Origin: Ruegeria lacuscaerulensis
GTDB lineage: Bacteria > Pseudomonadota > Alphaproteobacteria > Rhodobacterales > Rhodobacteraceae
Assembly (NCBI RefSeq): GCF_013031245.1
Contig: NZ_WPZL01000022.1
Location: 1 to 64,000, forward strand
Reading direction: 5' to 3'
Length of the DNA: 64,000 nt
Of the stretch, positions 23,581 through 53,488 are shown in pieces (the first letter of the stretch is position 1; each line of letters begins with the position of its first letter). Position numbers and translations under genes: made by a program. The notes below the pieces were generated by a model. The model made no database searches, was not told the DNA's origin, and saw nothing but the letters and a program-made list of their open reading frames with translations.

Positions 23581-23587
23581 CTTCCGA

Positions 23588-34699: not shown

Positions 34700-34792
34700 T
34701 TCTGAAATCAAACGCGTAACAGTAGCGCAATTCGCCAGAATACATCGGCCGCGCTGCTCAATCGGAGCGGCATTGCAACAAGGAGATAAGCC

Positions 34793-37057: not shown

Positions 37058-37061
37058 TGCC

Positions 37062-37761: not shown

Positions 37762-38484
37762 TCATAACTTGGAAAGCCCCTGTTTAAGCTGCTCCGTGAA
37801 GCCCGAAGTTTCCATATAATTCCGCAGGCGCTGGTTATATCCTCCGGGTGTGTTCAGTGCCCGGATCAGGTGCTGGCAATCCGGAGTGGCTTGCAGGCTA
37901 GAGCCGACCAGAGCACGTAAAAACGCTTCGCCCTGCGCAGCATCTTTAACATTTTCTCCCAGCCATTCTCCGGCTTTCTGCACCATGACGGTTGCCGGTG
38001 AAAGCACAGCCTGAGCGGCGAGATAGGCGGCAAGTTCACTTTGATCCGCTAGTTGGAAGATAGAATTGCGAGCCCCAAAAAGCGCATTGGCGATTGCAGC
38101 ATCGCCCAGTATCAAGATCGGAGATCCGCCTGTGGCGATTCCAGGAAAAGGGATCATATTTGCGACAGCAGTCGCCGGCGCAACCATTTCTCGCAAATCT
38201 GAGAGCGTCGGGCCGGACATGAGTGATATGATCTTTTGGTCTGGCCTGAATGTCAGGGAAGAGAGAACGGGCCTTGCTTGTTCAGCCACCAGACCCAGGA
38301 ACACGATGTCACTCGCATCAAGGACCTCTTGATTGTCAGCAACAGTCACATTTTCATAATTTCCAGCGAGCCGGGAGGAGTGCGCCTCTCCGCGGTGTGA
38401 AACGGTGATTTGGTGGCCGTCCTCAGCAATCCCATCGACAACGGCGGCGGCTATGGTACCTGTTCCAACAATTCCGATTCTCAT
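37762..38484 (-). CDS. ProC-like NAD(P)-dependent imine reductase
   Basis: A protein of about 240 residues in the pyrroline-5-carboxylate reductase family. The Rossmann start MRIGIVGTGTIAAAVVDG follows GGAGG; a GTG four codons upstream is an alternative start. Later motifs are SDIVFLGLVAEQARPVLSSL, MIPFPGIATGGSP and LFGARNSIFQLAD. The proline pathway motifs of the C-terminal dimer domain are only partly there, so an imine or an amino-acid derivative other than pyrroline-5-carboxylate is likely. It lies 124 bases after the aldolase-like gene on the same strand and may be the last member of the Sox operon. Confidence 0.7.
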   Translation of the reverse strand: MRIGIVGTGTIAAAVVDGIAEDGHQITVSHRGEAHSSRLAGNYENVTVADNQEVLDASDIVFLGLVAEQARPVLSSLTFRPDQKIISLMSGPTLSDLREMVAPATAVANMIPFPGIATGGSPILILGDAAIANALFGARNSIFQLADQSELAAYLAAQAVLSPATVMVQKAGEWLGENVKDAAQGEAFLRALVGSSLQATPDCQHLIRALNTPGGYNQRLRNYMETSGFTEQLKQGLSKL

Positions 38485-38607
38485 GGTAGAACTCACTCTC
38501 CTCCAGTTTGTTGCATTGACAAAATTCTAAAAGTCTACGCTCAAAGCATTTGTTATCTCCCGGCATCAAATCTGCAGCGGTGCGTGAAAAAGCCTCGGAT
38601 AAGCGCC

Positions 38608-39663
38608 CTAATTGCAGTTTTTCGAAAAATTACGACAGGTATGTTCAAAAATTTCCAAGTGGGATTCCTCATCCGCATAGGACATCACCATGCGCACTCC
38701 ATTGCCTTGCCCGTCACAAACCCAGGGACGCAGGGACAATCCTACCTTTACTAGCGCTGCCTCTAGCGCAAGCGGCAACTGAACAAAGACTTCGTTGATA
38801 TGCACCGGATGGACAACTTCGACCCCTGGGCAGGCGTGCAAGGCAGCGAGGATACGTGTGGCATTGCCATTGGCGCGGGCCGCATTTGTCCGCCACAGAT
38901 CATCCTCCAAATGGGCAAGGAGCTGGGCGGACATGTAGCGCATCTTCGACGAAAGGTGCCCTGCTCGTTTATGCATGAAGCGCAGCGCCGCGCCGATGGC
39001 CGGATCAAATGTGATCACGGCTTCAGCGTTCATCGTGCCATTTTTGGTGGTGCCGTAGGTCAGCAGATCAACACCCGCCTTCCAAGTCATTTCCGCAGGG
39101 GAACAGCCCAGGTGGACGAGCGCATTGGAAAACCGCGCCCCATCCAGATGGGTCTTCATGCCCGTACCGTGAGCGATGGCATTCAGTTCAGCTAATTCCT
39201 CCAACCCATAGGTGACACCGCATTCGGTGGCCTGGGTCAGACAAAGCGCGCTGGCCTGCATATGATGGGCGTTGCCAATGCCATGATCGGAAAGCGCCTG
39301 ACGCAAGGCCTGTGGCGTGATCTTATTGTGCGCCCCGCTCAGTAAAGTCATGCGCCCACCACCAGAATAAAACTCCGGCGCGCCACATTCGGTGGTGACC
39401 ACATGAGCCAGGCGGTGGCAAAAGATAGTGCCATAGGGTGGCGTGATCGCGCCCAGAGCCAAACCGTTGCCTGCTGTACCCGTGGGCACGGGAAAGACAA
39501 AGGCTTCACGCTCGAAGAACTCGGAAAATGCCGGGTTCAAACGCTCGGTCCACTGATCCGCGCCATAAGCTGTCTCAACGCCAGTGTTGCAGGCGATCAA
39601 AGCCTGCATCACCTCGTCACAAACCGGTGCACCATTGTCCGAGTTAAACTGGTAGCTTGGCAT
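38608..39663 (-). CDS. ltaE: Threonine-aldolase-like PLP enzyme (beta-hydroxy amino acid lyase)
   Basis: A 351-residue fold-type I PLP enzyme of the low-specificity threonine aldolase family. From the ATG at 39663 it starts MPSYQFNSDNGAPVCDEVM, with FVFPVPTGTAGNGLAL near 70, the THLDGARFSNA region with the PLP-contacting Asp and Arg near 165, and the Schiff-base Lys in TYGTTKNGTMNAEA near 200. Such enzymes split beta-hydroxy amino acids to glycine and an aldehyde. It is one base away from soxG and in the same operon, so it can act on the glycine end of sarcosine breakdown or on a hydroxy amino acid precursor. Confidence 0.85.
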   Translation of the reverse strand: MPSYQFNSDNGAPVCDEVMQALIACNTGVETAYGADQWTERLNPAFSEFFEREAFVFPVPTGTAGNGLALGAITPPYGTIFCHRLAHVVTTECGAPEFYSGGGRMTLLSGAHNKITPQALRQALSDHGIGNAHHMQASALCLTQATECGVTYGLEELAELNAIAHGTGMKTHLDGARFSNALVHLGCSPAEMTWKAGVDLLTYGTTKNGTMNAEAVITFDPAIGAALRFMHKRAGHLSSKMRYMSAQLLAHLEDDLWRTNAARANGNATRILAALHACPGVEVVHPVHINEVFVQLPLALEAALVKVGLSLRPWVCDGQGNGVRMVMSYADEESHLEIFEHTCRNFSKNCN

Positions 39664-39664
39664 C

Positions 39665-40273
39665 TCAGACAAATCCTCCGCCAAATTCCGCCGCCGCATC
39701 TTGTAGGACATCCCACAGGTAATGGCCGGAAGCAAAATCGCTCAGCATATAAAGCCCGAACTCGCCGTTGCGATCCTGGCGCAGCAGGATGGCACCGAGC
39801 CGCGCAACTACGGTTTGCGCCACGTCCCCTTCCGCAAAGACGTCAGGCCGCAGATCCACACCACAAATCTTGGCCATCATCGACGGTACATCTGCGCCGG
39901 TGATCCACAGCCAACTATGGCTGTCTTCCCGAGGCAGCGGAAAGCCGATGCCCTGAGTGCCAGTGGACCGCGCCGTATCCCAGGCCTTCGTCAGATTTGC
40001 GCAGAAGGTGGAACGACCCTCTGGATCAGGCAGTGCCAGGTATTCCTGCCCGCCTAGCCAGGCGATGACTGTGCCATCGTCTTGAAAGGCGGCTTGGTTG
40101 GGGGCGTCTGGCACGGTGTCAACTTGAGATGCCAGCCAGTCGCGGGTGCCTCGGCCTTTGAAGCCGGTGCGCGGCAAGGCGGAAAGGTCGGTAATCTTCA
40201 CACCGCCGCTGACTGTCGGGCGAGTGTCGCGCAAACGATGAGCAAAGGGGCTTTGTGCGATTGGATTGTCCAT
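39665..40273 (-). CDS. soxG: Sarcosine oxidase gamma subunit
   Basis: A 202-residue gamma subunit of heterotetrameric sarcosine oxidase. From the ATG at 40273 it begins MDNPIAQSPFAHRLRD and shows ITDLSALPRTGFKGRGTRDW, AWLGGQEYLALPD and the C-terminal LYMLSDFASGHYLWDVLQDA. The length is normal. It stabilises the enzyme rather than catalysing. It is two bases behind soxA. Confidence 0.9.
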   Translation of the reverse strand: MDNPIAQSPFAHRLRDTRPTVSGGVKITDLSALPRTGFKGRGTRDWLASQVDTVPDAPNQAAFQDDGTVIAWLGGQEYLALPDPEGRSTFCANLTKAWDTARSTGTQGIGFPLPREDSHSWLWITGADVPSMMAKICGVDLRPDVFAEGDVAQTVVARLGAILLRQDRNGEFGLYMLSDFASGHYLWDVLQDAAAEFGGGFV

Positions 40274-40275
40274 GA

Positions 40276-43143
40276 TCACATCTCCTGCCGCTTGTTGTCG
40301 GGGTCGTAGAAATGGGGGGAGCAAACGGTTGCCTGATGCAGGCTTCCGTCACTGGCACGCAAGGTGATCTTCGCACCGGTCTCGCTGTCAGAGCGGGCCG
40401 CATAGGCCAGACCAATGACCTTGCCCACCGAAGGCGACTGACAGATCGACGTCACAAAGCCCGCGATCTCACCATTTTTGATCACCAGATTGCTTTCTTC
40501 CAATCCAGCCGTAGGCATCTCATCCAGGGAGAAGCCGACCAATTTACGATCCCTAAGCGTCTTGTTGCGCAATTCCAGACTGCGTTTGCCGACGAAGAAT
40601 GGTTTCTTATTGGCCACCGCCCAGATCATGTCCAGCTCTTCCGGCGTGGTCATACCGTCGGTGTCCTGGCCAACAATCACATGGCCCTTTTCCAGTCGCA
40701 TGACGCGCTGTGCTTCCAGCCCGAAGGGGCGAATGCCAAACTCGGCACCCGCTTCAGCAATAGCATCCCAAAGCGCCCCGCCATAACGCGCGGGCACATG
40801 GATTTCGTAGCCCAACTCACCAATGAAACCGACCCGGAAAGCCCGAGCGGGAATGCCTGCCACATGCCCCTCGCGATAAGCGAGATACGGGAAATCCTCA
40901 GCGCCAGTGGCGATATCATCTGTCAGCTTGTTAAGCACCGTACGGGCATTTGGTCCGGCAAGGTTCACGCCGGCATAGGCTGCGGTCACATTGGCAATAT
41001 CCACGTCCAACCGCCATTGGGCGTTCCACCACAGCATATTACGGTAGATATTGTCGACGCCGGTGGTGGTTGCGGTGATGTAGAAGTAATCCTCGGCAAT
41101 GCGGCAAGCCACACCGTCGTCAATCACTGTACCCGCCTCATTGGTCATCAGCAGGTAACGTGTTTTGCCGATGGGCAGTTTGGCATAGGCAAATGTGTAC
41201 ATCCGATTGAGGAATTCTGCCGCATCAGGACCGCGCACATCCAACCCACCAAGCGTTGAAACATCGATCATACCGACGTTGGTGCGCGCATTACTGACTT
41301 CGAGCGCAATGGTCTTCTTAGCATTGCCCCGCCCATAATAAGCCGGACGTTGCCAATTCCCTGCCAGCAACCATTCTGCTCCGGCTGACTCATGCCGGGA
41401 ATGCATCGGCGTGCGGCGCATCGGCGTGAACTTACGTCCCGCCAGCGTGGCAATCTTTTCCGTTGTAAAAGGTGGTCGCGCGGTGGTGACCCCCACTTCC
41501 GCAACAGTGCGGTCGGAGTGTTTGGCGACCAGGCGTGCGGTCGGCAGCGCCGCGTGCCGACCTTGGCTAGGCCCCATGCCAACGGTGGAGAAGCGTTTAA
41601 CCAATTCCAGTTCGCGGTAGCCCTCGGCAACCGCATTCTTGATGTCCTTGATTTGCAGATCTTCGTCGAAATCCACAAAATCCTTGCCTTTAGGATGTGG
41701 GAAAATCGGCCAGGGGTAATTGGGCGAAGTGGCGCATTTGTCTGGCGCTTCCGGGGCATCAGCCTCCGACAGCCGGGCCGCAGCCCGCGCACCCATGGCC
41801 GTGCCATGAGCTACACAGCGCTCCAGCGCGTATCGGCCATCCATTGATCCAGCGAGACCAACGTCGGCGTTGTGCCCAGTGATCGAGAACATGGCCGTTT
41901 TATCGTCATACCCAACTTTGCCGCCAGCTTGCACAGCGAGCTGATAGGTTGGTGTGTAGCCCACCGACATGCAGACCAGATCGCACGGTAGCATCCGCTG
42001 CTTACCAGTCGCTGCACCCGCGTCGTCCAATTCGGCAATGGAGACGCCCCGCACATGCTTGTGGCCTGGCCCGGGCAAGGCCTCATAGATGCAGCAGCCA
42101 TCGTGGATGGTAAGCCCCACTGTCTGAACCTGTGCCCGCAATGGCCCTTCCGCCTCCTTGCGCAGTTCGCAGACAGTGACGGAAACACCTGCATCCACCA
42201 AGTCAAGAGCCACACCATAGGCGTCATCGTTGCCCGCCAGAACAACTGCCGTCTGCCCCGGTGTGACACCGTAAGATTTTATCAAACGCTGCGCAGCGGA
42301 ACCCTGCATAATCCCAGGCAGATCGTTGTTGCGGAATTGCGCGGGTTGTTCGATCAGTCCTGTGGCAAGCACCAACTGACGCGCCCGGATTTTGTGCAAT
42401 CGGTTACCTTGGATCACCGCCAGCCAATTGTCGGCAAACCAGCCATTACAGACGGCGTCAGTCCAAGTCTCGATGTTTTCCATCGCCTCGACATGATCGA
42501 TCAGGTCTTGCAAATTCATGCCGCGTGCATAGGTCGCCGCGCCGCCCAGCTGTGGATTTTCATCAACCAGCAGAACAGACCCACCCAACTTGGCCGCCTC
42601 TAGCGCCGCAGCCAGACCAGAAGGACCGGCACCCACCACAACCACATCATACCAGCCATAAGCTTTGTCGTGATAACCGTCTTCGGGCGCATTGATATCC
42701 AAAGTGCCCAGACCCGCCTTGGCACGGATCAGCGGTTCCCAGATTTTCTCCCAGATGCCTTTAGGCTTATAAAAAGTGCGATAATAGAACCCCACAGGCA
42801 TGAAACGCCCCATACGGTTCATGAAGAAGTCGCGATCTTTCTCCAAGGAACCGTTGACGTTTTGAGCCTTGATCTCTAGCCCTTCAGAAATCGGGTGACG
42901 GTCGGCAAAAACGCTGACCTCATTGCCGATCTGCACCAATGTATTGGCGTCCTGACCGGCCATGGTCAGCACCCCGCGCGGGCGATGGTATTTGAAGCTG
43001 CGCGACAGAACCCATTGCCCATTGGCCGCCAGGGCCGAGGCAATGGTGTCGCCCTGAACACCGGAGTAGCGTTTTCCCTCAAAGAAAAAAGTGATCGGTT
43101 TCGTGCTGTCGATCAGCGCGCCGGTTCGAGTGATTTGAGTCAT
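40276..43143 (-). CDS. soxA: Sarcosine oxidase alpha subunit
   Basis: A 955-residue alpha subunit. The N-terminal part (about 1-110) is a ferredoxin-like domain with KRYSGVQGDTIASALAANG, followed by a dinucleotide-binding domain (VVVGAGPSGLAAALEAAKLG near 168-187) and a second Rossmann part (VVLAGNDDAYG). The C-terminal third (about 570-950) is a GCV_T folate-binding domain that takes the N-methyl carbon to form 5,10-methylene-THF. It starts ATG overlapping soxD by four bases. Its length is a little below the roughly 1000 of many family members but no domain is missing. Confidence 0.94.
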   Translation of the reverse strand: MTQITRTGALIDSTKPITFFFEGKRYSGVQGDTIASALAANGQWVLSRSFKYHRPRGVLTMAGQDANTLVQIGNEVSVFADRHPISEGLEIKAQNVNGSLEKDRDFFMNRMGRFMPVGFYYRTFYKPKGIWEKIWEPLIRAKAGLGTLDINAPEDGYHDKAYGWYDVVVVGAGPSGLAAALEAAKLGGSVLLVDENPQLGGAATYARGMNLQDLIDHVEAMENIETWTDAVCNGWFADNWLAVIQGNRLHKIRARQLVLATGLIEQPAQFRNNDLPGIMQGSAAQRLIKSYGVTPGQTAVVLAGNDDAYGVALDLVDAGVSVTVCELRKEAEGPLRAQVQTVGLTIHDGCCIYEALPGPGHKHVRGVSIAELDDAGAATGKQRMLPCDLVCMSVGYTPTYQLAVQAGGKVGYDDKTAMFSITGHNADVGLAGSMDGRYALERCVAHGTAMGARAAARLSEADAPEAPDKCATSPNYPWPIFPHPKGKDFVDFDEDLQIKDIKNAVAEGYRELELVKRFSTVGMGPSQGRHAALPTARLVAKHSDRTVAEVGVTTARPPFTTEKIATLAGRKFTPMRRTPMHSRHESAGAEWLLAGNWQRPAYYGRGNAKKTIALEVSNARTNVGMIDVSTLGGLDVRGPDAAEFLNRMYTFAYAKLPIGKTRYLLMTNEAGTVIDDGVACRIAEDYFYITATTTGVDNIYRNMLWWNAQWRLDVDIANVTAAYAGVNLAGPNARTVLNKLTDDIATGAEDFPYLAYREGHVAGIPARAFRVGFIGELGYEIHVPARYGGALWDAIAEAGAEFGIRPFGLEAQRVMRLEKGHVIVGQDTDGMTTPEELDMIWAVANKKPFFVGKRSLELRNKTLRDRKLVGFSLDEMPTAGLEESNLVIKNGEIAGFVTSICQSPSVGKVIGLAYAARSDSETGAKITLRASDGSLHQATVCSPHFYDPDNKRQEM

Positions 43144-43418
43144 GATCGGAGTTCCTCGGATGGGCGAAGGTCCTCGGATGGATAGGTTCGAAGGATTTCG
43201 TCTGTCACGGTGTTACGTTCGGCAATGAACCAGTAGTTAGTCGGCGTATGGCACCACCATTCGCGCACTACGCCAGCGGCGTTATTGGCGAGCCAGACGT
43301 ACTCGGCCCAATCCTTGTCGGAAGTCTTGTCCGGGTCGGGATGGTTGTGGAATTCGCCGTAACAAATGAATTCGGAAATGTTGCGGGGTCCGTTCAACGG
43401 ACAGTGCATGATTTTCAA
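43140..43418 (-). CDS. soxD: Sarcosine oxidase delta subunit
   Basis: A 92-residue delta subunit. The zinc-binding residues include Cys and His in MHCPLNGPRNISEF, CYGEFHNHPD and WWCHTPTNYWF. The tail carries a short repeated unit (PSEDLRPSEELR). It overlaps soxA by four bases and follows soxB by 12 bases. This order B-D-A-G is the standard sox operon order. Confidence 0.93.
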   Translation of the reverse strand: MKIMHCPLNGPRNISEFICYGEFHNHPDPDKTSDKDWAEYVWLANNAAGVVREWWCHTPTNYWFIAERNTVTDEILRTYPSEDLRPSEELRS

Positions 43419-43430
43419 TTGCGTTGTCCC

Positions 43431-44669
43431 TTAGTGGCTGGCCGCTGTGGCACCCATTTCATTAACCAGGTCAAAAGTGTCGAAACGATCAAGGCGGAAG
43501 GGTTGGATCATTTCCGGCACCCGGTCTTCAGCCATTGCCTGTGCCAGATAGAAACCGCTGGCGGGGGTCGACTTGAATCCCCATGTGCCCCAGCCCGCAT
43601 CCAGCCAGTAGTTGTCCAATGGCGAACGTCCCATGACCGGGCTGTAATCCGGCGTCATGTCGGTGATACCCGCCCATTGACGCAGAATTTTCAGATCCCC
43701 AATGAAGGGAAACATCTCCAGCGCGGAGGCCGCCAGACTTTCCTTCATGTCCAGCGTTGAGCGAGTGTTGTAGAGCTCATAAGGATCAGAACCCCCGCCA
43801 ATCACCAGCTCGCCACGGGCGGATTGCGAAATATAGCAATGCAGCGCAGTGGAGGAGACCATAGGGTTTAGGAAGGGTTTCACCGGGTGGGTCACCATGG
43901 CCTGCAGCGGGAAGCTGCGGATCGGCAAGCGTAGCCCGGCCATGGCAGCCACAACCGAGGAATGCCCGGCCACACATTGCACCACAGCCCCAGCCGAGAC
44001 ATTGCCACGATTGGTCTGCACTTCTGTGACCTTATTCCTGTCCACTGTCAGACCAGTCACCTGAGTTTTCTGGTGCAATTCCACACCGCGGTCACAAGCA
44101 CGGATGGCATATCCCCAAGCAACCGCGTCGTGCCGCGCGGTGGCAGCATCCGGGTGCCACAAACCTTTGAGGATTGGGCGACCTTCAATATCCAGGTTTA
44201 GACTGGGCACCAGCTCTTTGATCTGCTGACGATCCAGGATTTCGTTGCGTTCACCCAGAAATGTGCCACTGTCCGCCCGTAGGCGCAGCGCCCGCGAAAC
44301 GCCATCGGAATGAGACAGGGTCAGCTGACCCCGGCGGGAGTACATCAGGTTGTAGTCCAGCTCGTTGGCCAGGCTTTCATAGAGCCGCATAGAAGCGGCA
44401 TAGAACTTGATTGACTGCGAGGTGATGTAGTTGGAGCGGATCACCGTGGTATTGCGCGCTGTGTTGCCGCCGCCCAGGTAGCCTTTTTCTAGAATGGCAA
44501 TATTTGTTATGCCGTGTTTCGTCGCCAGATGATAGGCAAGCGACACTCCGTGACCGCCGCCACCTATGATCACGACGTCGTAGTGATTTTTCAGATCAGG
44601 GGTTCGGGGAATCTCCTCACGCACCGGATAGCGTCGAGAGAGACCGTATTTGAGTAGCGCCAGGACCAT
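43431..44669 (-). CDS. soxB: Sarcosine oxidase beta subunit
   Basis: A 412-residue beta subunit that holds FAD and covalent FMN. The N-terminal motif is YDVVIIGGGGHGVSLAYHLA near 30-48, followed by GGGNTARNTTVIRSNY which is the usual beta-subunit signature near the flavin site, and by the second motif SAGAVVQCVAGHSSVVAAMA. The C-terminal end LDAGWGTWGFKSTPASG is also conserved. The gene starts about 105 bases after the PhyH-like gene on the same strand. Substrate is sarcosine or another N-methyl amino acid. Confidence 0.94.
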   Translation of the reverse strand: MVLALLKYGLSRRYPVREEIPRTPDLKNHYDVVIIGGGGHGVSLAYHLATKHGITNIAILEKGYLGGGNTARNTTVIRSNYITSQSIKFYAASMRLYESLANELDYNLMYSRRGQLTLSHSDGVSRALRLRADSGTFLGERNEILDRQQIKELVPSLNLDIEGRPILKGLWHPDAATARHDAVAWGYAIRACDRGVELHQKTQVTGLTVDRNKVTEVQTNRGNVSAGAVVQCVAGHSSVVAAMAGLRLPIRSFPLQAMVTHPVKPFLNPMVSSTALHCYISQSARGELVIGGGSDPYELYNTRSTLDMKESLAASALEMFPFIGDLKILRQWAGITDMTPDYSPVMGRSPLDNYWLDAGWGTWGFKSTPASGFYLAQAMAEDRVPEMIQPFRLDRFDTFDLVNEMGATAASH

Positions 44670-44774
44670 GAGGAGAGACCTTCTAGAGCTGGAGTTGTGC
44701 CGTTTCGTTGGCTACTAGCTCAGTGGCATATTCAACCATCGAAACCTTTGCGACTGATGTTCGTTCAAATACAG

Positions 44775-45581: not shown

Positions 45582-45604
45582 TGTGTGCCTTTCGGTGCGT
45601 GTCA

Positions 45605-46762: not shown

Positions 46763-46807
46763 TCGGTGTCTCCTAACTGAGATTGATTCCACTGCGTCGA
46801 CTGTTAA

Positions 46808-46815
46808 GGTATACC
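46808..46815. promoter_or_regulatory. GGTATACC palindrome, left operator in the divergent control region
   Basis: A perfect eight-base palindrome GGTATACC followed by AAT, 45 bases upstream of the M24 start codon and in the gap before the ABC operon. The same 11 bases recur at 46914. FadR/FCD-type GntR proteins usually bind TGGTATACCA-like sequences, and one is encoded at 51894. Confidence 0.65.
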
Positions 46816-46913
46816 AATGATAAGTCAAGAGGCTGGCGCTGTTCATGATAGGCCCCAAAATATTGGGACATTTTTGCGAAATTGCAGATTTATGTTGAGA
46901 AACTTCCCAAAAA

Positions 46914-46921
46914 GGTATACC
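46914..46921. promoter_or_regulatory. GGTATACC palindrome, right operator in the divergent control region
   Basis: Identical copy of GGTATACCAAT, 106 bases from the left site (ten helical turns) and 39 bases before the start codon of the binding-protein gene. With the two sites on the same face of the helix, one repressor pair could control both operons by looping. Confidence 0.65.
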
Positions 46922-46960
46922 AATACGCCGTAGTTCAGGGAATCAATCAGGGAGAGACCA

Positions 46961-47806
46961 ATGAGCCAAATACTAAGAACCACTATTATCGCCGCGACAA
47001 CCATTGTGGGTGTCGCGACATCGGCGCTGGCGGGTCCACTCATGGATCGTATCGAAAGTGGTGAGACCATTCGGATTGGTTTCTCCAATGAAGTGCCGTG
47101 GTCTTACCCCGGCGACAACGACGCACCACTTGGATTTGCAAACGTACACACGCTGGGTGTCCTGAAGGCAATGGGCTACGACAACATCGAGCCCGTCGTG
47201 ACAGATTGGGGTGGATTGATCCCGGGCCTCAAAGCCAATCGCTTTGATATCATCACGGGTGGCATGTACATTCTTGAAGCGCGTTGTGAGAGCATTGATT
47301 TCTCCGAGCCGATGGGGATTTTTGGCGATGCCTTTGTGGTTCCCGCTGGCAACCCGAAGAACATCACCTCTTATGCTGACATCAAAGATCAGGGGGCCAC
47401 GATGGTCACTGGCGCCGGTTACAACACGGTTGATGCCGCCAAACGCGAAGGCGTGGCAGCCGAGCAGATCCTCGAAGTGCCCGGGCCAACTGAGGTGCTA
47501 GCCGCAATGCGTGTTGGTCGTGCTGACGCAGGTGCTATGACGTTCTTCACGGCGCAAAACCTGGCGGCCCAATCCGATGGCGAGCTTGAGGTCACCGATC
47601 CTAACGCGTTGCCCGAATGGACCCAGAACTGGGTTGGTATCGGTTTCCGCCCGGAAGACAGCGACTTTCTTGAGGCCTTCAATGCCGCGCAGGCAGAGTA
47701 CTTGGGTTCAGAAGAGATGTTGGCCGCCGTTGCGCCATACGAATACACTGAATTTCAGGTTCCGGATCCAAGCGTGAAAACCGAATGGATTTGCCAGAAC
47801 CGTTGA
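46961..47806 (+). CDS. ehuB: Amino-acid ABC transporter binding protein, EhuB-like
   Basis: A 281-residue family 3 periplasmic binding protein with signal peptide MSQILRTTIIAATTIVGVAT cleaved after ALA. It has IRIGFSNEVPWSYPGDNDAP, GLIPGLKANRFDIITGGMYI, CESIDFSEPM and the EWTQNWVGIGFRPEDSDFLE ending of EhuB (ectoine/hydroxyectoine binding) type proteins. Cys residues at 106 and near the end could form a disulfide. It is first in an A-type operon and lies 39 bases past a GGTATACC operator. Ectoine or a related zwitterion is the best guess as ligand. Confidence 0.82.
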   Translation: MSQILRTTIIAATTIVGVATSALAGPLMDRIESGETIRIGFSNEVPWSYPGDNDAPLGFANVHTLGVLKAMGYDNIEPVVTDWGGLIPGLKANRFDIITGGMYILEARCESIDFSEPMGIFGDAFVVPAGNPKNITSYADIKDQGATMVTGAGYNTVDAAKREGVAAEQILEVPGPTEVLAAMRVGRADAGAMTFFTAQNLAAQSDGELEVTDPNALPEWTQNWVGIGFRPEDSDFLEAFNAAQAEYLGSEEMLAAVAPYEYTEFQVPDPSVKTEWICQNR

Positions 47807-47821
47807 CGGCATTGCTTTAGC

Positions 47822-47848
47822 AGGCGGGTCAGGTTCGGCCCGCCTTTT
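47822..47848 (+). terminator. Hairpin with T run after the binding-protein gene
   Basis: A nine-base stem (AGGCGGGTC with GGCCCGCCT, one G-T pair) with a six-base loop and four Ts stands 16 bases after the ehuB-like stop. It looks like a partial Rho-independent terminator or processing site that makes more binding protein than permease. Confidence 0.75.
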
Positions 47849-47871
47849 ACGTCCGCCATCCGGGATACGTC

Positions 47872-48537
47872 ATGTCATATTGGGAATTTCTCGCCGAAAA
47901 CGCGCCGCGTTTTCTGGACGGAACGCTGGTCACAATCGCGCAGTTTTTTCTGTCGGCAGCGCTTGCCATTGTGCTCGCTCTGACCGCAGGGTTGATGAAA
48001 CTGTCACGGAATATTGCGGTGCGCTGGACGGCCGGCGTTTACATTGAAATCTTCCGGGGCACGTCTCTTTTAGTGCAGCTTTATTGGATTTTCTTTGTCC
48101 TGCCTCTCTTCGGATTGACGCTGGACAAGTTCTTTGCCGGTTTCATTGCGGTCGGGCTGAACCTCGGGGCCTATGGTGCCGAACTCGTGCGTGGCGGCAT
48201 TCAGTCGGTGCCCAAAGGGCAGTGGGAAGCGGCTTATGCGATCTCGATGTCTCCGGCCAAACGGATGTATCGGATCATCCTGCCACAGGCGTTTTTGAAC
48301 ATGCTGCCGCCTTGGGGCAACCTGATGATCGAACTGCTGAAGGCGACCGCGCTGGTGTCGTTGATTTCGGTTACTGACCTGATGTTCGAAGCCAAGCAAA
48401 TAAACGGCTCCACCTTCCTGTCAGCGCAGGCTTTCGGGACAGCACTGATAATTTACTACATTCTTGCGCGGCTGATCGTGACGCCGTTCATGCGGTGGCT
48501 CGAACGCTTCATGGCACGCAAATTGGGGAGGGCGTAA
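47872..48537 (+). CDS. ehuC: Amino-acid ABC transporter permease, EhuC-like
   Basis: A 221-residue polar amino acid permease of the HisMQ type with about five membrane segments. It contains GTLVTIAQFFLSAALAIVLA near 20, the EIFRGTSLLVQLYWIFF motif near 60-75 and the coupling loop VPKGQWEAAYAISMSPAKRM. The last residues RFMARKLGRA are the basic cytoplasmic tail. It is three bases before the second permease. Confidence 0.9.
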   Translation: MSYWEFLAENAPRFLDGTLVTIAQFFLSAALAIVLALTAGLMKLSRNIAVRWTAGVYIEIFRGTSLLVQLYWIFFVLPLFGLTLDKFFAGFIAVGLNLGAYGAELVRGGIQSVPKGQWEAAYAISMSPAKRMYRIILPQAFLNMLPPWGNLMIELLKATALVSLISVTDLMFEAKQINGSTFLSAQAFGTALIIYYILARLIVTPFMRWLERFMARKLGRA

Positions 48538-48540
48538 GCT

Positions 48541-49209
48541 ATGTTTGACTGGCGTTGGGATTTTACCTTTGAAATTCTTCCCCGGCTTTTACAGGCCACG
48601 CTGAACACGCTGGCCGCTGCCGGAATCGGCTATGGGATCGCAGTGGTACTGGGGCTGGTTTTTGCACTGGCGCAACGCACACCGTCGCGCATCGTCACAA
48701 TGGTGGTGCGGGAATGTGTCGAATTCATCCGATCGACGCCGCTGGTGCTGCAGATTTTCTTTGTGTTCTTTGTCGGCCCGCAATTCGGGATACGCCTCAG
48801 TCCATGGGTGGCAGGGATGATCGCCATCGGGCTGCATTATTCGGCCTACCTGTCTGAGGTTTATCGCGGCGGCCTCGAGTCGGTGCCGAAAGGACAGTGG
48901 GAGGCTTGCACCGCACTGAACCTGAGCACGACCAAGACCTATTTTCGCGTTATCATCCCCCAAGCCCTGCCGCCCTCAATGGCTGGGATGGGCAATTACC
49001 TGGTTGGGATATTCAAGGACACACCGATGCTGTCGGTTATCGGCGTGGCCGAGCTGATGCAGGCGGCGAATGCCATTGGTGGGTCAACTTACAGGTATTT
49101 GGAACCCTATACCATGGTCGGGATCATCTTCCTGGCGATTTCACTGCCCGCAGCCGGGTTGATCAAACTCTTTGAGGCCTGGGTGCGCAAGAAACTGGGA
49201 ATGAACTGA
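48541..49209 (+). CDS. ehuD: Amino-acid ABC transporter permease, EhuD-like
   Basis: The second permease, 222 residues, with the ECVEFIRSTPLVLQIFFVFF motif near 62-80 and VPKGQWEACTALNLSTTKTY coupling loop. About five membrane segments. Its stop overlaps the ATPase start by one base (ATGGA/TGA). It pairs with the EhuC-like subunit to form the pore. Confidence 0.9.
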   Translation: MFDWRWDFTFEILPRLLQATLNTLAAAGIGYGIAVVLGLVFALAQRTPSRIVTMVVRECVEFIRSTPLVLQIFFVFFVGPQFGIRLSPWVAGMIAIGLHYSAYLSEVYRGGLESVPKGQWEACTALNLSTTKTYFRVIIPQALPPSMAGMGNYLVGIFKDTPMLSVIGVAELMQAANAIGGSTYRYLEPYTMVGIIFLAISLPAAGLIKLFEAWVRKKLGMN

Positions 49210-50024
49210 TGGAAGATATGTCGCAATACCCACTGGAACTGACCGGGCCCGACGTGCCGATGGTACGGTTCATGAACGTAACCAAAAGCTATGGCGCCCT
49301 GACCGTACTGGACAGTCTGCATCTGGACGTGTCGGAGGGTGAGATGGTCACCGTGATCGGCCCGTCCGGCTCGGGCAAAACCACCGTGTTGCGCATGCTG
49401 ATGACTTTGGAAACCATCAATGGCGGCGTCATCTATGTTGATGGCAAACCGCTTACCCATATGGAAAAGAACGGGGTTCTGGTGCCGGCGGACGCGAAAT
49501 ACCTGCGCCGGGCCCGGTCCTCAATCGGCATGTGTTTCCAGCATTTCAACCTGTTTCCACATATGACCGCCCTACAGAACTGCATGGAAGGGCCTGTGCA
49601 GGTGCTGGGTTTGCCAAAGGCTGAGGCCCGAGAACGGTCCGAAGAGTTGTTGTCGATGGTCGGCATGATCGACAAAAAGGACCAGCATCCTTCGCGCCTG
49701 TCGGGCGGTCAGCAGCAACGTGTCGCCATCGCCCGGGCGTTGGCCATGCGCCCCAAGGTGATGCTGTTTGATGAAGTCACCTCGGCGCTTGACCCCGAGG
49801 TAATCGGTGAAGTGACCGGCGTCATCCGCAAACTGGTGGCCGAGCACAACCTCACCATGTTGATGGTGACACACCAGATGGGCTTTGCGCGCGACATTTC
49901 AGATCGCGTTTGTTTCTTCTACCAAGGGAAGATCGAAGAACAGGGTCCTCCGGAGGATCTGTTCGGCAATCCCAAACGCGAACGCACACAGCAATTCCTG
50001 TCAGCAGTAAAAGCGGCGGATTGA
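49209..50024 (+). CDS. ehuA: Amino-acid ABC transporter ATPase, EhuA-like
   Basis: A 271-residue ATPase with Walker A GPSGSGKTTVLRML near 57-70, signature LSGGQQQRVAIARALAM, Walker B VMLFDEVTSALDPE and the H-loop MMVTHQMGFARDIS. The sequence YVDGKPLTHMEKNGVLVPAD between Walker A and Q-loop is a longer insert seen in EhuA-type ATPases. It completes the uptake system and is followed 60 bases later by the aspartate-dehydrogenase-like gene. Confidence 0.92.
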   Translation: MEDMSQYPLELTGPDVPMVRFMNVTKSYGALTVLDSLHLDVSEGEMVTVIGPSGSGKTTVLRMLMTLETINGGVIYVDGKPLTHMEKNGVLVPADAKYLRRARSSIGMCFQHFNLFPHMTALQNCMEGPVQVLGLPKAEARERSEELLSMVGMIDKKDQHPSRLSGGQQQRVAIARALAMRPKVMLFDEVTSALDPEVIGEVTGVIRKLVAEHNLTMLMVTHQMGFARDISDRVCFFYQGKIEEQGPPEDLFGNPKRERTQQFLSAVKAAD

Positions 50025-50084
50025 GCCTTGCACCTGACGTCATGATACGGTTCCCGAGGAACCACCACCAAAGAAAGACCTGTT

Positions 50085-50888
50085 ATGAGAATTGGAGTTG
50101 CCGGTATCGGAGCTGTCGGTGCGGCGGTTGCACGCGCATTGGACAACGGTGAAGTTCCAGGATGTGCGCTGGGTGGTCTGGCGGCGCGAACCAGCGAAAA
50201 GGCGGCTGCCCTGAATGATACTCTGAAACATCCGGCGCATGTAGTGGATTTCGGAACGTTGGCCTTGACCTGTGATTGTGTGATCGAAGCTCTCCCCCCC
50301 GCATTGTTCGGCGATCTGGCTGACCCGGTTTTGCGGGCAGGCAAGCAACTGGTTGTGCTTTCGGCCAGCCAGTTGCTTGCCCGGGACGACCTAATCTCTC
50401 TTGCGGCGAAAAACGGTAGCCGCATTATGGTCGCGTCAGGTGCGATGCTGGGTCTGGACGCGTTGAATGCAGTGAATGTCGGCCAGATTCATTCGGTCAC
50501 AATAGTGACCCGCAAACCGGTCGAAAGCCTTATCAGGGCACCTTTTGTCGCGCGGTTGGGCATGGATCTAACCGCGCTTCAAGGGCCAAAACAAGTGATC
50601 GCAGGCAGTGTCACCGAAGTGGCACGCGAATTCCCCGCCAACGTGAATGTCGCGGCAGCGATCAGCATGGCCGGGCTTGGTCCAGACAAGACCCGCATGG
50701 AGGTCTGGGCTGATCCATCCCTGACGCGAAACACACATTCGGTAGAGGTAACTTCCGACAGCTCGGATTTCACAATGTCTATTCAGAACCGGCCGAGCGC
50801 TGAAAACCCGGCTACCGGCATCATCACCGCCCGAAGCGTGATCGCGCTTCTACGCCGCTTTCATTCAACTTTGCAGGTGGGGACGTGA
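50085..50888 (+). CDS. L-aspartate dehydrogenase-like NAD(P) enzyme
   Basis: A 267-residue protein with the Rossmann start MRIGVAGIGAVGAAVARALD and the pattern VVDFGTLALTCDCVIEALPP of L-aspartate dehydrogenases. Later ISMAGLGPDKTRMEVWADPS and the ending NPATGIITARSVIALLRR match that family. Aspartate dehydrogenase reduces iminosuccinate to aspartate or the reverse. It is followed four bases later by the dehydratase gene at 50893, which would make an imine-type product; together they would convert a hydroxy amino acid into aspartate. Confidence 0.8.
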   Translation: MRIGVAGIGAVGAAVARALDNGEVPGCALGGLAARTSEKAAALNDTLKHPAHVVDFGTLALTCDCVIEALPPALFGDLADPVLRAGKQLVVLSASQLLARDDLISLAAKNGSRIMVASGAMLGLDALNAVNVGQIHSVTIVTRKPVESLIRAPFVARLGMDLTALQGPKQVIAGSVTEVAREFPANVNVAAAISMAGLGPDKTRMEVWADPSLTRNTHSVEVTSDSSDFTMSIQNRPSAENPATGIITARSVIALLRRFHSTLQVGT

Positions 50889-50892
50889 CGCA

Positions 50893-51858
50893 GTGTTGAC
50901 CATTGAAATGATCACTCAGGCTGCCGAGCGGTTACAGGATGTCGTGATCCGAACCCCGTTGTTGGAATCTCCACTGCTCAACAACGCGCTTGGGTTCCGG
51001 TTGCTGATCAAATCGGATTGCCTGCAAAAGACCGGCTCGTTCAAAATACGTGGTGCTTACAACAAGATTGCGTCGCTTGGCGAAGGCCAGCGCAAGGCAG
51101 GGGTCGTGGCATATTCATCCGGCAACCACGCACAAGGCGTTGCGGCTGCCGCAAACGCGATGGGGGTTTCGGCTAAGATAGTGATGCCAGCAGATGCGCC
51201 CCGCATAAAGCTTGACAACACCGCCCAGTGGGGGGCCGAGGTTATCACCTATGACCGACAGACGGGTGACCGGGCCAAAATAGCCCAGGACATCGCCGAA
51301 AAAACCGGCGCAACGCTGGTGCCGCCCTATGACGATTACGACCTGATGGCCGGGCAAGGTACAACTGGGCTGGAAATAGCTGAGCAATTGGACGCGCTTG
51401 GCGTAAGGGCGGATAGAGTCATTTGCCCCGCCGGAGGTGGCGGGCTAATCGCCGGGCTGTCTACTGCCATGCTCGCGCGCCATGAGGACACTGAAATCTG
51501 GGCGGCTGAACCCCGGAATTTTGATGATACCAAGCGCTCTCTAGAAGCGGGAACTGCCCTGTCGATTGAGCCGGGTCACAGCTCGATTTGCGACTCGATC
51601 GTGACCGCGCGACCCGGACAGCTAACCTTTCCAATCAACCTGAAGACCCTGTCGGGTGGCTATTCCGTCAACGAGCTAGATGTTGTTGCCGCAATGCGGA
51701 CTTTGTTCACAGAGCTCAAGGTTGTTGCCGAACCCGGCGGCGCAGTTTCAGTGGCCGCAGCCGTGTCAAACAAACGCGCCTTGCAAGGGCAGACCGTCGT
51801 TGCTCTGGTGACGGGCGGCAACGTTGATATGGACAGTTTTCTCACGTGGATGGCATAA
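50893..51858 (+). CDS. Serine/threonine dehydratase-family PLP enzyme (hydroxyaspartate dehydratase or EutB-like)
   Basis: A 321-residue fold-type II PLP enzyme. The lysine lies in KTGSFKIRGAYNK near 50-62, the substrate loop in SSGNHAQGVAAAANAMG near 79-95 and the phosphate loop in PAGGGGLIAGLS near 178-190. There is no ACT domain, which rules out biosynthetic IlvA. Close in family are threo-3-hydroxyaspartate dehydratases and the EutB enzymes of hydroxyectoine use. The start is GTG. Adjacent to the aspartate-dehydrogenase-like gene, it probably dehydrates a beta-hydroxy amino acid. Confidence 0.83.
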   Translation: MLTIEMITQAAERLQDVVIRTPLLESPLLNNALGFRLLIKSDCLQKTGSFKIRGAYNKIASLGEGQRKAGVVAYSSGNHAQGVAAAANAMGVSAKIVMPADAPRIKLDNTAQWGAEVITYDRQTGDRAKIAQDIAEKTGATLVPPYDDYDLMAGQGTTGLEIAEQLDALGVRADRVICPAGGGGLIAGLSTAMLARHEDTEIWAAEPRNFDDTKRSLEAGTALSIEPGHSSICDSIVTARPGQLTFPINLKTLSGGYSVNELDVVAAMRTLFTELKVVAEPGGAVSVAAAVSNKRALQGQTVVALVTGGNVDMDSFLTWMA

Positions 51859-51893
51859 GTTGGCGAATACCCGTTATCGATAGTGAGCAACGC

Positions 51894-52556
51894 ATGACGA
51901 AGAACGATATCTATCTCGAGATGCGCCGGCGTATCTGCCTTCTTGACTATCAGCCGGGAACGCGCCTGAACGAGCGGGAATTGGCAACGGAATTTGGCGT
52001 CAGCCGCACGCCGATGCGGGCCGTGCTGCAAAAGCTTGAACACATCGGTCTGATCTCCAGCCAGCACGGGCATGGCACCATCGTTACCTCAATCGATCTG
52101 AAATCCATGCGCGATGTCTATATCGTGCGCATGAGGCTCATGGATGCGCTGGGTGATTCCGCTCCGTCCCCTCGGAATCCGGCCATACTGGACGAGATGC
52201 GCGAGTTGGAAGCGCGGTGCGATGCGATGCTGGATAGTCACGACAAACGCGAATTCGCGCGCGTGCTTCTGCGCTTGCACAAAATCCTGCATGGGTTGAC
52301 CACCAACGCGGTGCTGGAGGATATCAACGACACATTATTCTATCAGTCCGCGCGCTTTTGGTTCTTGTTGCTGGATCGCGTCGAGATGCGCGTCCAAGTC
52401 GAGGATTTGAAGGATGAGATCCGAATATTGCGCCGCAGTCTGGAGATCGGCGATATCAAGTTGACGGCCTCGATCCACAAAACCTATCTCAGAGTGGTCG
52501 TGTCGCGTCTGGATGCCATCCAAGAGGAAGGCGGTGTTCTTTTTGAAGCAGAGTGA
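51894..52556 (+). CDS. GntR-family regulator, FadR/FCD type
   Basis: A 220-residue regulator. The winged HTH includes YLEMRRRICLLDYQPGTRLN, ERELATEFGVSRTPMRAVLQ and LISSQHGHGTIV; the C-terminal helical FCD domain has the metal-binding His positions in VLLRLHKILHGL and TASIHKTYL. An in-frame ATG at 51846 would overlap the dehydratase gene, so the ATG at 51894 is preferred. It sits in the operon whose control region carries GGTATACC sites, so it is the obvious repressor of this whole regulon, with the imported compound or an intermediate as inducer. Confidence 0.88.
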   Translation: MTKNDIYLEMRRRICLLDYQPGTRLNERELATEFGVSRTPMRAVLQKLEHIGLISSQHGHGTIVTSIDLKSMRDVYIVRMRLMDALGDSAPSPRNPAILDEMRELEARCDAMLDSHDKREFARVLLRLHKILHGLTTNAVLEDINDTLFYQSARFWFLLLDRVEMRVQVEDLKDEIRILRRSLEIGDIKLTASIHKTYLRVVVSRLDAIQEEGGVLFEAE

Positions 52557-52565
52557 TCCTTCATA

Positions 52566-52573
52566 GGTATACC
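52566..52573. promoter_or_regulatory. GGTATACC palindrome before the amidotransferase gene (site 1)
   Basis: Perfect copy of the palindrome nine bases after the regulator stop, in the 158-base gap before the amidotransferase gene. It matches the two sites at 46808 and 46914. Confidence 0.6.
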
Positions 52574-52627
52574 TATATCTTCATTGGGGCACATTTTGGT
52601 AGATTATCCAGTTAAAATCATTGAATT

Positions 52628-52635
52628 GGTATACA
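52628..52635. promoter_or_regulatory. GGTATACA near-palindrome before the amidotransferase gene (site 2)
   Basis: A one-mismatch copy, 62 bases after site 1 (six turns), preceded by AATT. With site 1 it gives the amidotransferase gene the same two-site arrangement as the divergent region. Confidence 0.5.
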
Positions 52636-52714
52636 ATTTGAGCTAGATTTCTTCAATCATTGAACATCGGGGCGGCCGCAGCGTCTGCCCGCCCAAGATA
52701 GCGAAAGAAATACC

Positions 52715-53488
52715 ATGACCGATACAGCCGGGAACTCTTTGCTGTTCATTTCCATGTTGGGTGAGAATGAGCTTTTCAACCCCGATCACTTTGGAGGCTT
52801 GTGTACTTCCGGCCAGGAAAAAGATTGGATCGTGGACTGGTTTGGACCCGTGGCGCTGGAAACGGGTTTTTCACTATCCGGCGTCGACATTTGTCGCGGT
52901 GATGCACTGCCTGCGGTGGATGATGTCGATTGTGTCATCCTCGGCGGCACGATGCATGTAGTCACCGAGGACCGCCCCTGGCTGCACGCGCTCTATTCCT
53001 GGTTGCGCCGGTATCGCGATGCCGGGAAACCTTTGCTTGGCATTTGTGGTGGACATCAATTGGTGTCTACGCAGTTCGAGGATGGCGTGCTTGATGGCCG
53101 TACCGGAGGTACGCTTGCCGGAACCTATGAGATTGAGCTGACAGACCTTGGGCGCCAGCACCCCCTTTTTGAAGGCCTGTCCACATTCCCCCGTTTCAAC
53201 TTTGCCAACTATCTGCATGTGATTCCGTCAGAAGCGCAGAAAGCAAAGGTACTGGCCCGCATCGGTGAGAGCAACGCCATCTGTATCGACCACGGCAACC
53301 ATTGGTATACGACACAATTCCATCCGGAATCCCGCCGATCAGTCTGGTCCTGCATGTATGAACAGACCGAGCCAGAGCATGTCGAGAACTATTCGGATGA
53401 TCAGGATGGTGCGGCCTTGCTTCGAAACTTCATGGCAATTGCTGCAAAAGAGTTGAATAAACAACGTCCAGTCACGTTGAGTCCATAG
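52715..53488 (+). CDS. Class I glutamine amidotransferase-like protein
   Basis: A 257-residue protein with the catalytic Cys111 in LLGICGGHQLVS, the His and Glu in TTQFHPESRRSV and an oxyanion strand VDCVILGGTMHV. The triad of class I amidotransferases is thus present. It has no synthetase domain, so it acts either as a hydrolase of gamma-glutamyl compounds or as a subunit that delivers ammonia to a partner enzyme not in this window. It starts 158 bases after the regulator with its own two operator copies, so it belongs to the same regulon. Confidence 0.82.
   Translation: MTDTAGNSLLFISMLGENELFNPDHFGGLCTSGQEKDWIVDWFGPVALETGFSLSGVDICRGDALPAVDDVDCVILGGTMHVVTEDRPWLHALYSWLRRYRDAGKPLLGICGGHQLVSTQFEDGVLDGRTGGTLAGTYEIELTDLGRQHPLFEGLSTFPRFNFANYLHVIPSEAQKAKVLARIGESNAICIDHGNHWYTTQFHPESRRSVWSCMYEQTEPEHVENYSDDQDGAALLRNFMAIAAKELNKQRPVTLSP

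Follow-up and report, generated by a model that had tools for sequence, protein, structure and literature searches.

A Putatively Mobile Gene Cluster of Ruegeria lacuscaerulensis That Joins a DoeA-Like M24 Protein with a Divergent SoxBDAG: a Candidate Catabolic Regulon for an Ectoine-Type Solute

A Cluster Resembling, but Distinct from, Known Ectoine Catabolic Gene Sets

The stretch of Ruegeria lacuscaerulensis DNA analyzed here (the window; 64,000 nucleotides of assembly GCF_013031245.1, contig NZ_WPZL01000022.1, positions 1-64,000) carries at 37762-53488 a cluster of 16 genes that almost certainly form one regulon. Their predicted functions suggest a mobile, GntR-controlled catabolic system for an imported cyclic amidine amino acid of the ectoine type that carries an N-methyl group, a reading that we hold tentatively, at a little short of an even chance. 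As to its parts, we lean toward an ectoine-like substrate, and regard the presence of an N-methyl group as evenly balanced. At the center of the cluster stands an M24 protein that is related to the ectoine hydrolase DoeA; we use the name M24w for the M24 family that is close to, but outside, DoeA. Judged from its sequences, the cluster seems to work like ectoine catabolism, yet its hydrolase, demethylase and dehydratase fall outside the curated families, and it appears to be new as a gene set.

Shared Control Sites Unite the Cluster

A reading of the window made from the sequence alone had described two divergent operons plus an amidotransferase gene as one unit. All 16 open reading frames (ORFs) are present, open and of the family types then named, as judged from the ORF listing and profile searches (Table 1), and the distribution of control sites bears out their unity. 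The gap between the M24 and ehuB genes carries two copies of ATTGGTATACC, one ahead of each gene. The pattern ATTGGTATACMWT, derived from the cluster's own sites, matches the 5.27-Mb host genome only three times, at the promoters of M24, ehuB and the amidotransferase gene (52625), and its reversed control gave no match across this genome. ATTGGTATAC occurs four times in the window compared to an expectation of 0.01, the fourth copy lying inside the amidotransferase gene.

The motif GGTRTACC (0.4-1.0 copies expected per whole sequence) was found upstream of M24 genes in 19 of 25 sequences, twice in 17 of them and once in two. Its carriers are the window, Shimia, an uncultured Rhodobacteraceae bacterium, Roseovarius, Roseibium/Labrenzia, Granulosicoccaceae, Pararhizobium, Rhizobium, and Mesorhizobium; the gene on the opposite side of the gap is mostly ehuB, but encodes a peptide-binding protein in Roseovarius and is gntR in Granulosicoccaceae. 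On the basis of this linkage and co-conservation, the GntR protein may bind the GGTATACC sites, which we presume to be its operators, and the regulon is most likely under the control of its own GntR protein. The M24 start is most likely the ATG at 46760-46762 because close relatives begin with MIEHAPFP; an alternative, TTG-started ORF would overlap an operator.

The M24 Protein Has the Fold of DoeA but Belongs to a Neighboring Family

M24w relatives were collected by a scan of named genomes, and the best 80 of 203 were mapped. By identity, we drew an inner set of 39 loci (53-95%) and an outer set of 41 loci (43-50%). On the ectoine hydrolase models, the M24 protein of the cluster reaches 147 bits (TIGR02993; cut-off 613) and 210 bits (NF038259; cut-off 575), and thus lies outside DoeA. 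The M24w relatives of loci L096, L102, L077, and L089 score alike (145-152 and 206-215 bits), and the second M24 protein of L090 attains 131 and 190 bits. By sequence, the cluster protein matches creatinase at 29.5 bits and DoeA at 146 bits. A quick tree of 112 M24 proteins, rooted at its midpoint and with long branches flagged, places the cluster protein in a clade of 38 with a Shimodaira-Hasegawa-like approximate likelihood ratio support of 100. This clade is part of a larger M24w group of 78 that includes a second clade of 34 and stands apart from the DoeA group of 22; six more outer-set proteins lie outside the two large clades, and L057 and L107 (inner set) and L097 (outer set) have no M24w row in the tree.

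The kinship to DoeA shows in the predicted structure. An AlphaFold2 model built from 16 sequences (predicted local distance difference test score, pLDDT, 88) has EutD/DoeA as all of its five best PDB matches, with template modeling scores of 0.88-0.90 by query length, and creatine amidinohydrolase as the next fold. In an alignment to Pyrococcus prolidase, the two motif aspartates correspond to Glu238 and Pro249 and the later glutamates to His and Ser, replacements at positions that we take to be the M24 metal ligands. All 16 aligned M24w proteins have Glu238, and this residue lines up with Glu255 of DoeA, presumably the nucleophile. The protein hence combines an M24 fold with replaced metal-ligand positions and a retained catalytic Glu, the roles of these residues being assumed by us. 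Since fold, ligand replacement and the Glu238/Glu255 alignment agree, the enzyme probably works like DoeA, as a C-N hydrolase that dispenses with the M24 metals. By the curated models, M24w is nevertheless a family neighboring DoeA and not DoeA itself; it has in common with DoeA/EutD of Halomonas elongata (PDB 6TWJ, substrate-bound 6TWK, and 6YO9) the fold, the replaced ligand positions and the aligned Glu, but the two are only 26-27% identical, M24w scores far under both model cut-offs, and it differs in its clade and its partners.

The Importer and Its Relatives Keep Ectoine-Type Company

The Ehu-like importer of the sequence-only reading, like its DoeA-like hydrolase, held up: EhuA, EhuC, and EhuD exceed their NCBIfam cut-offs, with EhuB slightly below its own. 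EhuB is 65-68% identical to the EhuB proteins of L096, L098, and L115, with the common motifs NE-P-W, TDW/TEW-G, and GGMY, and these loci also encode DoeA (628, 630, and 593 bits, respectively; cut-off 613). In L096, EutB (427 and 458 bits; cut-off 413) and EutC (477 bits; cut-off 472) both pass, so that an M24w relative (45-46% for such cases) resides here within a EutB/EutC/DoeA cluster. DoeA-like proteins share the locus with M24w in 5 of 39 inner and 16 of 41 outer loci (21 of 80). One Mesorhizobium plasmid has, in a single run, doeA, two M20-type deacylases, a 35% M24w relative, SoxBDAG, and an Ehu importer, with a ferredoxin and a reductase beside them. L058 combines M24w (85%) with Ehu, DoeB (557 bits; cut-off 403), EutA-like (228; 318) and DoeA-like (425; 613) proteins, and an aldolase (48%).

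Further observations concern single loci. At 14250-19054 of L090, an uncultured alphaproteobacterial contig, ectoine-type genes accompany a DoeB2-like amidohydrolase (315 bits; cut-off 550) and a trans-3-hydroxyproline-dehydratase-like protein (434; 550); the gene lists of L090 and L091, both AT-rich, come from homology-scored ORF calls. In five gammaproteobacterial metagenome-assembled genomes (L074, L075, L076, L078, L085), M24w precedes a dipeptide-type ATP-binding cassette importer, not Ehu; the binding-protein ORF of L075 was not called.

The host itself possesses a DoeA-like gene on another contig (C11:19232-20395; 584 bits, just under the cut-off of 613). It is followed there (L156, 9134-11559) by an M20 deacetylase gene that is apparently split into two overlapping ORFs in different frames and that is a single ORF in L157 and L159. 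The presence of this separate gene speaks against plain ectoine as what the cluster acts on. As the sequence-only reading had stated, doeB, doeC, doeD, and ectD were not seen in the cluster (no genome-wide search was made for the first three). Given the DoeA-like gene on the other contig and no doeBCD in view in the cluster, we rejected the plain doeABCD route as the whole story.

With the ehuABCD-eutABCDE cluster of Sinorhizobium meliloti (PMC5924519), the cluster has in common the Ehu importer, an M24 hydrolase, an enzyme of threonine-dehydratase fold, and a regulator of the GntR superfamily. It differs in that the window cluster showed no EutA, EutC, EutE, AsnC, Ssd, or Atf and has instead SoxBDAG, PhyH, an aldolase, and an aspartate dehydrogenase, and a short GntR protein in place of the MocR/GabR-type EnuR. 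Some clusters with two EutD homologs are described in the 2026 survey of ectoine catabolism (PMC13188858), whose text contains neither "oxygenase" nor "aldolase" and has "sarcosine" solely within a reference. The open-access literature searched gave no described pathway with this exact gene set, in line with the sequence-only reading.

This M24w Is Rare in the Order, and the Regulon Has Apparently Moved between Genera

M24w at 95% identity or more is present in 3 of 390 sampled genomes of the order, the host included, and the next three reach 45-49%; PhyH at 96% or more is found in the same three genomes, with 40% as the next best value. Of 380 genomes of the order, 271 have a DoeA-like gene (E ≤ 1e-150), which exceeds the cut-off in 101. 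Since the cluster genes are 83-95% identical at the nucleotide level to those of relatives in other genera while gyrB is 77% identical, a recent transfer is likely, and the sequences indicate that the regulon is horizontally mobile between genera. Transposase-like ORFs, recognized by eye at 53623-54351, 20894-21604, 21865-22140, and 24652-26013, are in keeping with transfer. Sixteen plasmid records encode M24w (E ≤ 1e-60), annotated as "Xaa-Pro peptidase"; nine of them, from Rhizobium and Mesorhizobium and including some near-duplicates, stand at about 70% identity, and their source is a legume in eight and given only as a cell culture in the ninth.

For a comparison of gene neighborhoods, we examined 11 partner families in 47 loci, i.e., the window, the 39 inner loci, and seven plasmid loci, of which two duplicate the DNA of two inner loci; many of the 47 are short contigs. 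The linkage claimed by the sequence-only reading is kept in other genomes. EhuB, aspartate dehydrogenase, the PALP-fold enzyme, aldolase, and SoxA all accompany M24w in 14 of the 47 loci (two being the duplicates just mentioned); aldolase and aspartate dehydrogenase occur together in 15. SoxA is present in 15, a count that omits L059, whose match is partial (33%) and to another protein. Twenty control loci with DoeA, all from the host's order and chosen among the strongest DoeA hits, contain no SoxB, aldolase, aspartate dehydrogenase, or amidase, whereas EutC is found in 11 of them.

Membership of the unit proved less constant than had been claimed: PhyH is present in only 6 of 47 loci, and two close relatives, Shimia abyssi and an uncultured Rhodobacteraceae bacterium, carry no SoxBDAG-aldolase-ProC block in their loci. 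These two have M24, PhyH, Ehu, aspartate dehydrogenase, PALP, GntR, and the amidotransferase. In Shimia gijangensis, PhyH is the one member of the unit not found within the stretch available. In the seven plasmid loci, a ProC-like NAD(P)-binding protein, GntR, aspartate dehydrogenase, and EhuADCB are encoded divergently from M24w, a short protein, an amidase, SoxBDAG, aldolase, and PALP. The short protein is unannotated in one locus, a RidA protein is encoded in one, and L181 has a transposase and a regulator ahead of soxB. Beyond the ProC-like gene, L180 and L182 have genes for a desaturase-family oxygenase, ferredoxin, reductase, and formaldehyde dehydrogenase.

A Divergent SoxBDAG Points to Folate-Linked N-Demethylation

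The Sox proteins of the cluster have the architecture of heterotetrameric sarcosine oxidase, with all four subunits and the folate domain, but SoxA, SoxB, SoxD, and SoxG all score below their NCBIfam cut-offs. Because two other SoxA proteins of the host pass the model (1330 and 1284 bits, compared to 848 here and a cut-off of 1164), the substrate of this divergent SoxBDAG is likely one other than sarcosine. SoxB is encoded in 8 of 39 inner, 13 of 41 outer, and 7 of 7 plasmid M24w loci, but in none of the 20 DoeA controls; 10 of the 13 outer loci come from Mesorhizobium and also hold a DoeA-like gene, which shows that Sox genes do stand next to such genes there. purU follows PALP in six of the seven plasmid loci, the seventh ending at this point, and folD is added in two; both proteins of L183 exceed their model cut-offs. 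This addition of purU argues for a folate-linked demethylation. The N-demethylation step of the sequence-only reading is thus supported by the folate domain of SoxA, by purU and folD, and by the distribution of SoxB (21 of 80 M24w loci).

Amide Hydrolases, PhyH, and the Lower Enzymes

An amidase is present in 18 of the 47 loci and the amidotransferase in 10, and the two never occur together (0 of 47); the amidotransferase of the marine copies gives way to the amidase in the rhizobial ones. This rhizobial enzyme is AtzE-like (360 bits; AtzE cut-off 461), and the short protein preceding it, which had no Pfam or NCBIfam match, looks to us AtzG-like by eye. The window showed neither protein, and the amidotransferase may substitute for them there.

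PhyH matched no NCBIfam model at E ≤ 1e-5, and EctD was not among its five PDB matches at 0.01, the best of which was MysH; we therefore rejected it as an EctD-type ectoine hydroxylase. Its predicted structure was poor (pLDDT 41 from six sequences) and was set aside. Five of the six PhyH loci also contain the amidotransferase, and PhyH is found neither in the S. gijangensis stretch nor in the seven plasmid loci.

Among the lower enzymes, aspartate dehydrogenase passes its model (Table 1). The PALP enzyme lies outside BhcB, and was rejected as EutB at 184 and 205 bits (TIGR02991 and NF005680) against a cut-off of 413. An ortholog of the aldolase is found in S. gijangensis (93%), and the genomes of S. 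abyssi and the uncultured Rhodobacteraceae bacterium hold only a distant paralog (42-45%). The ProC-like protein, presumably an imine reductase, has a 91% identical copy in S. gijangensis, and an NAD(P)-binding-domain protein is encoded beside gntR in the seven plasmid loci; that of Mesorhizobium loti (L061) likewise belongs to F420_oxidored. The aldolase might cleave a β-hydroxy diamino acid to glycine, or might equally act with PALP and aspartate dehydrogenase as in the β-hydroxyaspartate cycle. This cycle converts glycine and glyoxylate to aspartate through reactions of the aldolase, dehydratase, and reductase types, and it is these reaction types that the cluster shares with BhcABCD. In contrast, its aldolase and reductase are of other families, its PALP enzyme stays far below the BhcB cut-off, and no BhcA was seen in the cluster (BhcA, BhcC, and BhcD were not searched for genome-wide).

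Table 1. Genes and presumed control sites of the cluster, with positions in the window.
Feature	Position	Strand	Evidence (bits)
ProC-like (F420_oxidored/P5CR-type) NAD(P) reductase	37762..38496	-	PRK06476 147 (cut-off 254); Pfam F420_oxidored 55
Threonine-aldolase/GntG-type pyridoxal-phosphate aldolase (LTA)	38608..39663	-	Beta_elim_lyase 173; GntG 55 (cut-off 230)
SoxG-like subunit	39665..40324	-	TIGR01375 37 (cut-off 144)
SoxA-like subunit, SO_alpha_A3 and GCV_T (folate) domains	40276..43143	-	848 (cut-off 1164)
SoxD-like subunit	43140..43418	-	TIGR01374 66 (cut-off 116.5); Pfam SoxD 97
SoxB-like flavoprotein subunit	43431..44669	-	TIGR01373 464 (cut-off 529)
PhyH-type Fe(II)/2-oxoglutarate oxygenase	44775..45608	-	HxD...H seen by eye
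M24w hydrolase, presumed ring-opening enzyme	45605..46762	-	profile scores, alignment, tree, predicted structure
Presumed GntR operator, 43 bp ahead of M24 start	46806..46818	-	motif search
Presumed GntR operator, 36 bp ahead of ehuB start	46912..46924	-	motif search
EhuB-like binding protein	46961..47806	+	TIGR02995 186.8 (cut-off 190.9)
EhuC permease	47872..48537	+	243 (cut-off 197)
EhuD permease	48541..49209	+	275 (cut-off 205)
EhuA ATPase	49209..50024	+	407 (cut-off 345)
Aspartate dehydrogenase	50085..50888	+	PRK13302 308 (cut-off 253)
PALP-fold enzyme	50893..51858	+	nearest threo-3-hydroxyaspartate ammonia-lyase 305 (cut-off 452); BhcB 257 (550); EutB 205 (413)
GntR-family regulator, presumed regulon repressor	51846..52556	+	family match; presumed binding
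Imperfect operator-like palindrome ATAGGTATACCTA	52563..52576	.	motif search
Presumed GntR operator ahead of amidotransferase gene	52625..52637	+	motif search
Class I glutamine-amidotransferase-like protein, presumed amide hydrolase	52715..53488	+	Cys and His-Pro-Glu motifs by eye

Elsewhere in the window, positions 33893-37475 (+) encode a B12-type diol/glycerol dehydratase, with the large and medium subunits fused (754 residues), together with its small subunit and a short-chain dehydrogenase/reductase.

A Cyanobacterial Gene Set Offers a Candidate Source of the Solute

In Hydrocoleum sp. CS-953 (L089), an M24w gene (54%) lies directly downstream of, and on the same strand as, genes for EctB (621 bits; cut-off 552), a fusion of EctC (ectoine synthase part, 161 bits; cut-off 128) with a formyltransferase domain (66 bits), and a methyltransferase. 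EctA was not noticed beside this set, and was not searched for in cyanobacteria. The same gene order is found in Okeania (L088), where the fusion is broken over two frames. Three other cyanobacterial genomes match the EctC part alone, and two other cyanobacterial EctC genes sit in unrelated gene sets. On the simplest reading of these sequences, EctB, the fusion and the methyltransferase would be a likely biosynthetic set for an ectoine analog that is made with a formyl group and then methylated. A formyl-derived ring in the substrate of the regulon remains, to our mind, doubtful. We are just as guarded about the wider proposal that filamentous cyanobacteria such as Hydrocoleum and Okeania make an undescribed solute, an N-methylated tetrahydropyrimidine carboxylate built with formyl instead of acetyl, and that marine and legume-associated bacteria consume this solute, or compounds related to it, through the regulon, with the M24 protein as the founder of a new family of ring hydrolases next to DoeA. 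Such an N-methyl tetrahydropyrimidine carboxylate (C6H10N2O2) would be isomeric with ectoine.

The window has an EctC-like cupin of its own (128 residues; 37% identity over 98 residues to the cyanobacterial EctC domain), which is followed by an MFS-like transporter ORF (together 22300-23974, minus strand); transposase-like ORFs flank the pair, which lies about 14 kb away from the cluster.

Proposed Pathway and Alternative Explanations

For an N-methylated, ectoine-type substrate we envisage the following route. EhuABCD would import the solute, and M24w would open its ring by hydrolysis, as DoeA does with ectoine, to an N-acyl (possibly N-formyl), N-methyl diamino acid. The acyl group might be removed by the amidotransferase-like protein here, by the amidase in rhizobia, and by an M20 or DoeB-type deacylase in some relatives; PhyH may hydroxylate or demethylate one position. 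The last N-methyl group would then leave through SoxBDAG as methylene-tetrahydrofolate, and in rhizobia purU and folD would serve to recycle the folate. Relatives of SoxB act on N-methyl α-amino acids, so that this group would probably come from the α-nitrogen. Glycine, aspartate or oxaloacetate could finally arise from the hydroxylated four-carbon backbone through the aldolase, aspartate dehydrogenase, and the PALP enzyme that resembles hydroxyaspartate lyase. The sequence-only reading had left the substrate as N-methylated, ectoine-like or carnitine-like; we favor a combination of the first two, and a carnitine-like solute is not favored.

Several observations weigh against this route. The cluster contains neither a transaminase nor a semialdehyde dehydrogenase that could serve a diaminobutyrate backbone, and Ehu-type proteins bind ectoine itself as well. 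The loci of S. abyssi and the uncultured Rhodobacteraceae bacterium have no Sox block, aldolase or ProC, and their genomes no aldolase ortholog. None of the 11 partners is present in 16 of the 47 loci (10 of these 16 are shorter than 15 kb), including many gammaproteobacterial ones with a dipeptide-type importer, and the counts over the 47 loci are not independent because the loci share ancestry. GGTRTACC is absent from the M24 gap in 6 of the 25 sequences (L057, a 3.2-kb contig, L072, L077, L082, L096, and L102). Among overlapping samples of 386 and 120 cyanobacterial genomes, the full EctC-formyltransferase fusion was found only in the two seed genomes, i.e., in two related genera of one lineage.

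The alternative that survives best is a variant route for ordinary 5-hydroxyectoine or ectoine, in which M24w would open the ring, the amidotransferase would deacetylate the product, and aldolase or PALP would convert hydroxylated diaminobutyrate to glycine, hydroxyaspartate or aspartate, with SoxBDAG as an add-on. Such a route would suit the Ehu-type importer, with an EhuB that resembles its counterparts in clusters with DoeA, the M24w relatives within EutB/EutC/DoeA clusters, and the two core units without SoxBDAG. However, the host has its DoeA-like gene on another contig, such genes are widespread in the order where this M24w is rare, and the 21 loci with both proteins would have an unexplained second enzyme for the same step. 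The DoeA control loci, moreover, are devoid of SoxB, aldolase, and aspartate dehydrogenase, and we consider this route unlikely.

Creatine, creatinine or another sarcosine-yielding compound is a still less probable substrate. A creatinase-like M24 enzyme would here release N-methylglycine, SoxBDAG would convert it to glycine, and the lower enzymes would form an analog of the β-hydroxyaspartate cycle; creatine amidinohydrolase is indeed the next fold after DoeA, and the three lower enzymes would catalyze the same kinds of reaction as BhcC, BhcB, and BhcD. Against this stand the far weaker creatinase score, a SoxA that fails the sarcosine oxidase model passed by two others of the host, the ectoine-type importer and genomic company, and the fact that no urea-handling gene was seen in the cluster.

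It is more improbable yet that two modules were joined by chance or recent transfer, namely a core of importer, M24, PhyH, aspartate dehydrogenase, PALP, GntR, and amidotransferase, and an unrelated SoxBDAG-aldolase-ProC operon. While the core stands alone in S. abyssi and the uncultured Rhodobacteraceae bacterium, and S. gijangensis has the Sox block without PhyH, the SoxBDAG, aldolase, PALP, and aspartate dehydrogenase genes (50-82% identity to those of the window) are found again beside M24w in Mesorhizobium, Rhizobium, and Pararhizobium, and largely in conserved order, and the full set is found in the 14 loci given above. A homarine route was dismissed since the open-access literature searched yielded nothing with this gene set, and rhizolotine, a Lotus nodule opine-like compound that may be a tetrahydropyrimidine conjugate, was considered for the rhizobial copies but given no weight.

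Implications

In the sea and in the surroundings of roots, ectoines have an important place both as osmolytes and as nutrients. Even if the substrate should turn out to be plain hydroxyectoine, the cluster would still represent a new, second route for this compound. For an N-methylated analog, the cyanobacterial gene set suggests a definite structure to search for, and the regulon lends itself readily to a test of inducers. A family neighboring DoeA that has its own importer, a presumed N-demethylase and control sites, all on transferable DNA, points to ectoine-like compounds that have perhaps never been measured.

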